From: a virus
Strand: one strand, 5' to 3'
IMG/VR virus record: IMGVR_UViG_3300039098_000030
Span: 1 to 43,382 of that record
DNA length: 43,382 nucleotides
In this document: positions 679 to 34,991 of the stretch, one piece after another
How positions within the stretch are numbered: position 1 is the first letter of the stretch
Layout: the number at the start of each line of letters is the position of its first letter
The notes under the pieces: generated by a model
Database searches by the model: none
What the model was told of the DNA's origin: nothing
The model's input: the letters and a program-made list of their open reading frames with translations, nothing else
Position numbers and translations under genes: made by a program

Positions 679-1243
679 TCGTTATTCCTTTTATCATTTG
701 AGATATTTTAGGACTTATATCATCGCTAAAACACTCTTGTTTATACTCTATTTGAATTTCATTAGTTTCTTGAACTCTTTGAATATTCCCTATTCTCTTA
801 GGATTTTCAAGCAACCATGATAAAACACTCTCAACATCTTCACTATTTAATTTTTTATAGTTCCCATATTCATTAATAACATATTTATTTATAAATTCTC
901 CATCTCTATCTAATCCGATAATTACAAAGTCTTTATAGCATCCTGCACCGTTTGCAATTTCTTTACCTTTATAGAATGATTGTAGATAATTATAAACACC
1001 CTTAGTATCATTAAATGGGTTCACTCCATCTTTTATGCCTAGTTCTATTTTCTTTCGATTGTAAGCAAACAATGCCTCTTTTGTTATAAGGTCTTTACTC
1101 TTCATAGGTTGGATAAATTCCATTCTAAAAACTAAAAACTTTGTCAAATCTTTATCTTCAATATCATGTATCATTTCAGATATGATTGTAGCTTGTACTA
1201 TATTTATTTCTAAAGCATCTTTTATAAAATCTATTCTATTCAT
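671..1243 (-). CDS. Hypothetical protein, 190 aa
   Basis: An acidic, mostly helical soluble protein with no family I can name. It follows the DnaT/helicase-loader-like gene with an 8-bp overlap and is followed by the 115-aa gene with another 8-bp overlap. A loader or replisome partner is possible by position, but no Walker motif or zinc motif is visible. Confidence 0.7.
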   Translation of the reverse strand: MNRIDFIKDALEINIVQATIISEMIHDIEDKDLTKFLVFRMEFIQPMKSKDLITKEALFAYNRKKIELGIKDGVNPFNDTKGVYNYLQSFYKGKEIANGAGCYKDFVIIGLDRDGEFINKYVINEYGNYKKLNSEDVESVLSWLLENPKRIGNIQRVQETNEIQIEYKQECFSDDISPKISQMIKGITNE

Positions 1244-1880
1244 TGATAAATCCTTGTGTTGGTAATCCTAATCCAAATTGAGAGTAATCTTGAACTTCTT
1301 GTTTTTTTTGTTGTTTTGGTTCAAATAAACCTTTCCATCCATTCATAATACTTGAGTTTATTATCTGCTCTTGAATTTCTTTAGAATAATCAGATAAAAA
1401 ATTAGCAGATAGTGTAACTCCATCTATTGATTTATACTTTTTGTAATTTAACCATTTTTTAAAAGCAATAGTATTTATAGTATTAGTATTTATAGTAGAT
1501 AAGTAATAAGTAATAGTATTAGTAGGGGTAGTTCGGGGGGTATCACTACTAGGTGTACTACTTGTATCTATACTCATATCTAATAGATTTTTAATATCAT
1601 CTATATTTACTAAATCTTCTTTTTTTAACATTGATTTAATTTTAAGAGTAATAGCTTTATACATAATAGAATATATATCTTCACTAATTTCTATTGTTTT
1701 TGTAATGGGTTTTTTGTTTTTATATCCAAAATACAGATTGATTTTAAAATGAATTTGAGTGTTATTATGTGTTAATGTATTTGATACACTTCCACCAGTG
1801 AACTCTTCTATTTTATAATCAGTATTTTTAACAATAAAAGCATTTAAAAGGTCTATATTTTGCTTATTTGTTAGTTTCAT
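1236..1880 (-). CDS. Putative phage replication protein (DnaT-like C-terminus)
   Basis: The 214-aa protein has an N-terminal alpha/beta part, a Ser/Thr/Pro-rich linker around residues 105-130, and a C-terminal helical module (about 138-185). That module has a Trp-Leu-x-Tyr start and ends in NGWKGLFEP. The NGWxGLF ending is typical of DnaT-like modules and C-termini of phage replisome organisers that recruit helicase, so a replication-initiation role is likely but not certain. No polymerase or helicase is in the window, so the phage may rely on host enzymes. The ATG has no clear Shine-Dalgarno and follows a strongly structured leader (1905-2005). Confidence 0.55.
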   Translation of the reverse strand: MKLTNKQNIDLLNAFIVKNTDYKIEEFTGGSVSNTLTHNNTQIHFKINLYFGYKNKKPITKTIEISEDIYSIMYKAITLKIKSMLKKEDLVNIDDIKNLLDMSIDTSSTPSSDTPRTTPTNTITYYLSTINTNTINTIAFKKWLNYKKYKSIDGVTLSANFLSDYSKEIQEQIINSSIMNGWKGLFEPKQQKKQEVQDYSQFGLGLPTQGFINE

Positions 1881-1904
1881 TTATTTAGGTGTTTTAAATT
1901 TACA

Positions 1905-2005
1905 CTCAACCAACTGAGAGGTTACCAAGCTTCTCGGTTGAGGTGTTCGGAGTGTATAAAGGTTATCAAAAAAGATAACCTCAGCTTGGTAACCTTTATA
2001 TACTC
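1905..2005 (-). ncRNA. Structured 5' leader RNA with loop-bulge pseudoknot
   Basis: Read on the minus strand, domain 1 pairs 1993-2005 with 1950-1962 (13 bp, one mismatch). It encloses a hairpin with arms 1974-1980 and 1961-1967 and a six-U loop, plus a 12-nt bulge (1981-1992). Domain 2 is a hairpin of CTCAACC/GGTTGAG and GAGA/TCTC pairs (1905-1942) with a 12-nt loop (1920-1931). That loop is perfectly complementary to 1983-1994, which spans the bulge and the edge of the domain 1 stem. The promoter at 2014-2019 would start RNA at about 2007, just before domain 1. It is probably a regulatory leader of the replication operon; a replication origin is the alternative. I do not recognise the class. 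Confidence 0.6.
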
Positions 2006-2013
2006 GTAGTGTC

Positions 2014-2019
2014 ATTATA
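2014..2019 (-). promoter_or_regulatory. Promoter (-10 TATAAT) for replication operon
   Basis: TATAAT on the minus strand is preceded by TTAGGG, giving TTAGGGTATA. The same ten bases occur in both copies of the 66-bp promoter repeat, where they lie just downstream of the -10. There is no good -35. A hairpin with 8-bp arms (2032-2039 and 2050-2057, AAGAGATA/TATCTCTT) covers the -35 region and could be an operator. Confidence 0.55.
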
Positions 2020-2091
2020 CCCTAATAAACCAAGAGATAAACCTAAATCTATCTCTTAATAATCAAATATACTTTGTAATTGTAACATAAA

Positions 2092-2122
2092 ACCTCTATA
2101 AGTGTCTTAAGTTTATAGAGGT
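2092..2122 (-). terminator. Intrinsic terminator-like hairpin
   Basis: A perfect 10-bp stem (2092-2101 with 2113-2122) with an 11-nt loop, followed on the minus strand by TTTT then A. It lies after the 96-aa gene and before the replication promoter, where a transcription stop would be expected. The U tract is short, so termination may be partial. Confidence 0.5.
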
Positions 2123-2160
2123 GTGATGAAGCTGGAACTTTCTCACGATGGTATTATAGC

Positions 2161-19478: not shown

Positions 19479-20153
19479 ATGGAAACACTTCAAATACCTC
19501 GTTTAAAAAAATGCTCAAAATGTAAAGAAATAAAACAGCTAAGATTCTTTGAATTTAGAAAAGATAATCAAAAATATAGAAGTTGGTGTAAAAAATGCGA
19601 ATCAATAAGAAGTAAAAAATAGAGAGATTGTCAAGGTGATGTTTTATTAAAGAAAAAAAGAGATTTTAGGAAAAACAATCTTCAATTATTAAGAGATAGA
19701 GAGCGTGAATATCTACAGAAAAATAAAAAAGTAAGATATGAAAAAAATAAAGAATATAGAGAGATAAACAAGAAAAGCATATCAATTCAGAGAAGCTTAT
19801 ACTATTTTGAAAATAAAGAACTAATTAGAATAAAGACTAAAATACATAGAAAAACGGGTGCTTGCAAAATGAGTGATATTTCATCACATCACAAAAGAAA
19901 AGCATTAAAAATATCTACAGACGATGGTACAATTAATAAAAAGTCACTCGAGAGTTTACTTATTAAGCAAAATAACAAGTGCTATTATTGTGAATGTGTT
20001 TTAGTTGAAAAACACTTAGACCACTATATACCACTTTCAAAAGGTGGAGCTAATAGTATCTATAATGTAGTATGGAGCTGCCCATCTTGTAATCTCAAAA
20101 AAGGTGCTAAAGACCCTATAGAATTCGCAAACAATATAGGGAAACTTTTTTAG
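19479..20153 (+). pseudogene. HNH endonuclease interrupted by an amber codon
   Basis: One reading frame of 224 codons is open from ATG to the stop except for TAG at codon 48 (19620-19622). The N-terminal part has a zinc knuckle (CSKCKEIKQ...WCKKC), the middle is Lys/Glu/Tyr-rich, and the C-terminus is a full HNH domain: CYYCEC, HLDHYIPLSKGG, NVVWSCPSCNLKKG. This order is typical of free-standing phage HNH homing enzymes. TAG ends other genes here, so it is a real stop. ATG at 19869 could still yield a 94-aa HNH domain, with a weak ribosome site. It is the only plus-strand gene and ends 1 bp from the tail chaperone stop. Confidence 0.82.
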
Positions 20154-34906: not shown

Positions 34907-34991
34907 TGGAGGAAGATAAGAGAATCGAACTCTTTACTGTTTTACCAGCCAGTCCTTAGCAAGGACTTTATCTACCTTAGATGTATCTTCC
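34907..34991 (-). tRNA. tRNA-Ser(GCU)
   Basis: The 85-nt cloverleaf has acceptor GGAAGAT/ATCTTCC (7 bp) and anticodon arm AGTCC-TTGCTAA-GGACT with anticodon GCT. A long variable arm with CTG/CAG stem, T arm AAGAG-TTCGATT-CTCTT and encoded CCA follow. The long variable arm supports Ser (AGC/AGU codons). Oddities are a short D loop and discriminator T instead of the usual G of Ser tRNAs. It lies between the hammerhead ribozyme and the portal promoter. Confidence 0.85.

Follow-up and report, generated by a model that had tools for sequence, protein, structure and literature searches.

The intergenic stretch 1881-2160, which lies between two minus-strand genes (2161-2451 and 1236-1880), raises the question of what function a densely self-complementary sequence serves directly upstream of a replication gene. 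The window, i.e. the whole stretch of 43,382 nt that was analysed, is part of a 44,628-base IMG/VR virus record, and its main early genes are on the minus strand. The element is real, strongly conserved, and rare; two other phages, only remotely related to this one, carry nearly identical copies. We give about even chances to its being a conserved bistable 5' leader RNA, transcribed from the minus strand, that controls the downstream replication operon, and consider it a probable new and rare switch in the control of phage replication.

The first-pass annotation had reported a 12-nt complementarity between 1920-1931 and 1983-1994. This complementarity is confirmed and is one base longer, as 1919-1931 (AGGTTACCAAGCT) and 1983-1995 (AGCTTGGTAACCT) match perfectly (13/13 nt). 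It is the longest perfect inverted repeat of the 110-nt element; in 2000 dinucleotide shuffles of this element, the longest repeat averaged 6.1, with a maximum of 11, and 0/2000 reached 13. Further complementary arms are observed at 1950-1969/1986-2005 (20 nt, 90%), 1960-1967/1974-1981 (8 nt), 1905-1911/1936-1942 (7 nt), and 1901-1907/1950-1956 (7 nt), and the motif AGGTTAYC occurs in four copies, two in each direction (AGGUUAYC and its complement in the RNA). On the minus strand, the four segments listed in Table 1 can pair in several ways, segment 1 with 3 (helix A) or 4 (helix B), and segment 2 with 3 (hairpin I) or 4 (7 nt). All four segments are employed in two mutually exclusive arrangements, either helix B and hairpin I, which are nested, or helix A and hairpin C, which bears out the earlier suggestion that the element can pair in two ways. 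In the latter arrangement, the 12-nt loop of hairpin C, located in segment 4, is able to kiss loop A over 7 bp (CCAAGCU/AGCUUGG). The description of 1920-1931 as a complete loop holds when the minus strand is folded, but not in the minimum-energy fold of the plus strand, where G-U pairs close part of it and leave a 4-nt loop.

Table 1. Features of the predicted replication-gene leader region, in window coordinates.
Feature	Position	Strand	Remarks
O-like replication gene P0001 (214 aa), lacking a Shine-Dalgarno	1236..1880	-	PHROG 678 'replication initiation O-like', E 3.6e-7
Predicted 5' leader RNA, about 127 nt	1881..2007	-	Starts 6 nt past TATAAT, ends at ATG of 1236-1880
Predicted -10 box TATAAT	2014..2019	-	From sequence; same distance in L013, absent there in L012
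Campylobacter-like -35, TTTAGGTTTA	2038-2047	-	18 nt before TATAAT; Campylobacterota only a guess for the host
Terminator-like hairpin upstream of leader (predicted)	2086..2128	-	16-nt arms, 88%, inverted repeat I2; T-rich tail
Conserved structured core, 110 nt	1898..2007	-	Also present in L012 and L013; no fourth copy with model R1
Segment 1, AGGUUACCAAGCU	1983..1995	-	Forms helix A with segment 3, helix B with segment 4
Segment 2, GAGGUUAUC	1974..1982	-	Partner is segment 3 (hairpin I) or segment 4 (7 nt)
Segment 3, GAUAACCUUUAUACACUC	1950..1967	-	Supplies the 3' arm in helix A (1950-1965 against 1990-2005) and in hairpin I
Segment 4, AGCUUGGUAACCU	1919..1931	-	Hairpin C loop and one further base; pairs with all of segment 1
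Hairpin C	1906..1941	-	1936-1941/1906-1911 (6 bp), 1932-1935/1916-1919 (4 bp), 4-nt bulge, 12-nt loop

The folding energy of the element is below that of 200/200 shuffles on either strand. On the minus strand, it amounts to -35.7, -35.9, and -35.2 kcal/mol (z -5.0, -5.7, and -5.1) in the window and in the related viral contigs L012 and L013, respectively. When the kiss is left aside, the A+C and B+I arrangements have energies of -33.7 and -36.5 kcal/mol in the window, -32.8 and -38.2 kcal/mol in L012, and -33.0 and -35.7 kcal/mol in L013. The gap between the two folds is thus 2.7-5.4 kcal/mol in all three sequences, and the 7-bp kiss could level or reverse it. Prefixes of the window leader adopt fold A at 55 to 85 nt and B+I from 90 nt, as segment 4 appears, which makes refolding during transcription plausible.

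With regard to orientation, the genes are on the minus strand and a TATAAT places the predicted transcription start near 2007, so the element is read as the 5' leader of 1236-1880. The structured leader proposed for the replication gene is supported, with the correction that such an RNA would be complementary to the printed strand, since the genes are on the other one. The predicted start falls at the border of the structure, 2 nt ahead of helix A; the first conserved bases, ACGAG (2007-2003), are found 6 nt after TATAAT. The -35 box was assigned with the Campylobacter promoter consensus, as given in an excerpt of PMC3824568. A palindrome at 2032-2057 with perfect 8-bp arms (AAGAGATA-10-TATCTCTT) overlaps the -35 region of the leader promoter and is possibly a repressor operator. 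A second intact copy of it was not found within the window; a 16-nt match at 19685-19700 is an A-rich stretch devoid of the palindrome and was dropped. Further upstream, a second TATAAT (2158-2153, minus strand) is followed, about 60 nt on, by the terminator-like hairpin (2128-2086), which carries a short T run. The minus-strand stretch 2086-2160 may possibly correspond to a small RNA or to the end of the upstream operon.

The product of P0001 also weakly matches replication O proteins in 12 Klebsiella, Escherichia, and Hafnia phage records, and searches of viral contigs with P0001 and P0002 as single proteins retrieved no relatives. The absence of a clear Shine-Dalgarno sequence in this gene, noticed in the first-pass annotation, is confirmed. 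Among 48 window genes chosen by hand, 42 exhibit a Shine-Dalgarno (a match of at least 4 nt within 20 nt), and the pairing of P0001 (+1.3 kcal/mol) is the weakest of the 48, tied with one other. The genes that follow the leader in L012 and L013 score -0.8 and -0.4, respectively, compared with -7.1 in L019, -5.5 in L020, and a weak -2.9 in L022, three contigs with related replication genes in which the leader is absent. A Shine-Dalgarno is thus lacking in 3/3 leader genes and a Shine-Dalgarno-like sequence is present in 2/3 leaderless relatives, which suggests, from few cases, that the presence of the leader is linked to the missing Shine-Dalgarno. As neither nested fold clearly hides the start codon, the start region being half open in the nested models, we can only infer control of translation.

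Pattern scans of IMG/VR revealed two copies of the element besides that of the window, in L012 and L013, so that at least three copies exist, one per record. By blastn, the L012 and L013 elements are 89% identical to that of the window over 132 and 133 nt. The three upstream sequences have only short weak matches in common; the similarity therefore begins where the transcript is predicted to start. The three copies were used to build a covariance model (R1), which returned, in 286,614 bases from 18 sources, the copies themselves, weaker hits to their reverse strands, and three further matches with E-values of 2.7-6.3. A pattern scan of 84,980 genomes yielded 22 stretches, all of which were judged by eye to be chance occurrences (other hairpins or repeats, with the remainder of the element missing), hence no convincing copy, and the scan of viral contigs yielded L012 and L013 only. 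In blastn searches with the intergenic region, 8 short weak matches (9-16% coverage) were obtained in 50,697 phage records and none in plasmids. The seven contigs with relatives of the Erf protein all lack the element, and a stretch of L011 (9265-9300) considered as a partial copy was rejected, as it lies inside an ORF. The Rfam search that had been recommended gave no match in the window at the gathering thresholds of Rfam 15; in a permissive search with the region and L013, the best score was 20.3 bits against a threshold of 50, which was rejected, so no family matches the element. No described equivalent of the leader was found in searches of open-access papers.

The leader is markedly more conserved than its surroundings. 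Between L012 and L013, it shows 1 substitution in 110 columns, versus 26/132 bases, with 14/44 third positions, in the first 44 codons of the gene (Fisher p 6.6e-7). Matches to seven ORFs of the window are present in the L013 contig, with a protein identity of 27-63% versus a DNA identity of 89% for the leader. The window differs from L012 at columns 7, 67, 71, 72, 94, 95, 96, and 99 of alignment A2, and 7/8 of these differences are located in the outer stem, the bulge, or the edge of hairpin C. All ten pairs of hairpin C are kept in 3/3 sequences, and its outer stem keeps 6/6 pairs with one double change (C-G to U-A) and one wobble change (A-U to G-U). The sequence engaged in the alternative pairings is invariant across the three copies, and one stem changes in register. 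Random helix changes without compensation, named in the first-pass annotation as speaking against the structure, were not seen, as the pairs of helix A, the kiss, and hairpin C are all kept in both relatives. The counts are not above those of shuffles, though, of which 176/500 do as well; with three sequences, the covariation is suggestive and not significant, and helices B and I are uninformative in this respect. The invariance of the core could be partly due to recent transfer, but a block of changes flanked on both sides by invariant sequence speaks for selection.

The genes that follow the leader differ. The L013 gene begins with MKIDKKAINYY and has no PHROG match, and its product is 62% identical over 97 aa to that of the L012 gene, which matches the PHROG 'replication protein' (E 1.5e-24). 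The N-terminus of P0001 is unlike those of L012 and L013. As the N-termini differ and L019, L020, and L022 are leaderless, the leader is a module that is not tied to one protein. The replication proteins encoded at 1236-1880 of the window and at L051:16259-16948 are mosaic; P0001 shares a C-terminus only (58% over 59 aa with the L020 replication protein), and the protein sharing it has an L013-like N-terminus. In L012 (4853-5278), an HNH domain (PF01844, E 9e-7) is fused to the first ~38 residues of an L013-type replication protein and is followed by the complete replication gene, an arrangement suggestive of a homing-type insertion in which the leader was retained. Direct repeats are found within the replication genes of the window (1463-1532, between the parts coding for the N- and C-terminus), L013 (12983-13103), and L020 (6253-6327), and are candidate lambda-like origins.

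Based on these observations, the proposed bistable leader would act on the expression of the replication gene, probably at the level of translation. Helix A (1:3) would form first, as the RNA polymerase leaves the promoter, followed by hairpin C, the loop of which could then kiss loop A. Alternatively, segment 4 would invade segment 1, and the RNA would refold into helix B and hairpin I (1:4, 2:3). As the start codon lacks a Shine-Dalgarno, the fold probably sets the efficiency with which ribosomes start on the A-rich tail, or the lifetime of the mRNA. The N-terminus of the product is an unlikely route of feedback, since it differs between phages. In favour of the leader, we count the 13-nt complementarity, the low folding energy in 3/3 sequences, the TATAAT at the same spacing in 2/3, the similarity that starts sharply at the predicted start, the conservation exceeding that of the gene, the register of hairpin C maintained through a double and a wobble change, the latter pairing on the minus strand only, the closeness of the two folds in energy, the passage of the prefixes from A to B+I, the Shine-Dalgarno pattern, and the differing N-termini downstream. 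Against it, we count the small number of copies (n=3), the covariation not exceeding that of shuffles, the better folding of the plus strand, a start codon that neither fold clearly hides, the lack of a TATAAT at the expected place in L012, a possible contribution of recent transfer to the invariance, and the weak Shine-Dalgarno of the leaderless L022.

The plus strand could itself be the working RNA, i.e. a two-hairpin antisense to the leader that would act alone or paired with it, on the model of plasmid copy control by CopA/CopT, RNAI/RNAII, and Inc RNA/repZ. This is the chief rival explanation, although a doubtful one. The plus strand is more stable than the minus strand in 3/3 sequences (-46.1, -42.0, and -46.8 kcal/mol, with z of -8.8, -6.5, and -9.1 in the window, L012, and L013, respectively), and a strand difference as large occurs in 0, 32, and 0 of 400 shuffles, so that it is beyond shuffles in 2/3. 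This advantage is largely due to pairs that are G-U on the plus strand and A-C on the minus strand, such as the helix A mismatches of the window and L013. However, the helix A change in L012 breaks the plus-strand wobble, and the kept register of hairpin C has an A-C mismatch on the plus strand in L012 and L013. Moreover, 1881-2160 contains no plus-strand TATAAT, with only weak -10-like words near 1854-1901, and a T run is absent after the element in the window. A role of the RNA in steering the transcription machinery or the fate of the mRNA, as a put-like antiterminator or as a 5' stem that protects the mRNA or is cut, is improbable. Such a signal would fit an element that opens the transcript of a long block of genes running in one direction, is under strong sequence constraint, and does not depend on the gene downstream, but it leaves the missing Shine-Dalgarno unexplained. 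The put RNA of HK022 likewise forms two hairpins where an early phage transcript begins, but HK022 has two put sites, whereas the element is present in a single copy per record. R1 has no match up to E 10 in 40,000 of the 40,751 bases of HK022, which is a weak argument across such a distance.

A DNA element at a replication origin, whether as binding sites for the initiator or another protein or as hairpins for single-strand initiation, seems quite improbable. The repeats in both directions beside a replication gene are what would be expected of it, and each strand can fold as DNA as well (z -4.8 and -5.9), but the loop length varies (T6/T5), which a dimer site would tolerate badly. An initiator-binding origin, and hence the DNA origin structure considered in the first-pass annotation, is unlikely because the element is kept unchanged where the N-termini of the following proteins differ, while other repeats, candidate counterparts of the initiator-bound iterons of a lambda-type origin, sit inside the replication genes, as in lambda. 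A coding function, as a leader peptide or an N-terminal extension, is very hard to credit: a TTG frame passes through the leader into the gene in L012, but an in-frame TAA directly precedes the ATG in the window, and in L019 and L020, where the leader is absent, the protein has this same Met as its first residue. Since 1-nt indels in the loop and linker break the frame, a leader peptide was rejected.

Returning to the bistable leader, a more elaborate version can be put forward only tentatively, as we think it rather unlikely to hold in full. In this version, a kissing or pseudoknotted leader fold, unlike described families, would replace the Shine-Dalgarno as a two-state switch timing the replication protein, perhaps with a plus-strand partner RNA, and the module would move between phages before unrelated replication genes. 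Plasmids provide classic examples of RNA switches on initiator genes, and one on a phage replication operon would, if true, link the phage and plasmid fields. It would also offer a small defined RNA in which alternative pairing, Shine-Dalgarno-less translation, and co-transcriptional refolding are directly testable.

The loop pairing of ColIb-P9 repZ is reportedly short. In proposed mode of action, the repZ leader and Inc RNA of this IncI-alpha plasmid are the closest known system, as described in an excerpt of PMC8383071: repZ translation needs a pseudoknot, which the antisense RNA blocks, and the likeness comprises the leader of an initiator gene, a loop that can pair at a distance, and, as predicted for the phage, fold-dependent translation. 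Compared by description, the phage leader differs in its 12-13 nt pairing, two complete folds, and Shine-Dalgarno-less start, and in belonging to a phage. Complementarity between a loop and a remote stretch of the leader is shared by the phage element (13 nt). As regards exposure of the ribosome-binding site by the pairing, the phage gene has no Shine-Dalgarno and its start region is half open in the nested models; as regards a competing antisense RNA, the plus strand folds well but has no clear promoter. According to an excerpt of PMC4485353, pMV158 repB has an atypical translation start just behind the region targeted by the antisense RNAII, which resembles the situation of the phage replication gene; RNAII is 48 nt long with one hairpin, whereas the phage element has 110 nt and two hairpins, and its antisense is putative. 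In lambda, RNA signals are also located directly upstream of O, and OOP RNA (pO promoter), encoded beside O, acts on cII (excerpt of PMC3985674). The likeness would extend to the opposite strand if the plus strand is the working RNA; in contrast to lambda, there is no such target gene here and no terminator for a plus-strand transcript.

Helicobacter pullorum prophages are among the best matches of the terminase (46% over 61% of the query), from which a Campylobacterota host is suggested as a guess only. A phage-borne tRNA-Ser (gct) at 34907-34991 on the minus strand adjoins the portal gene.
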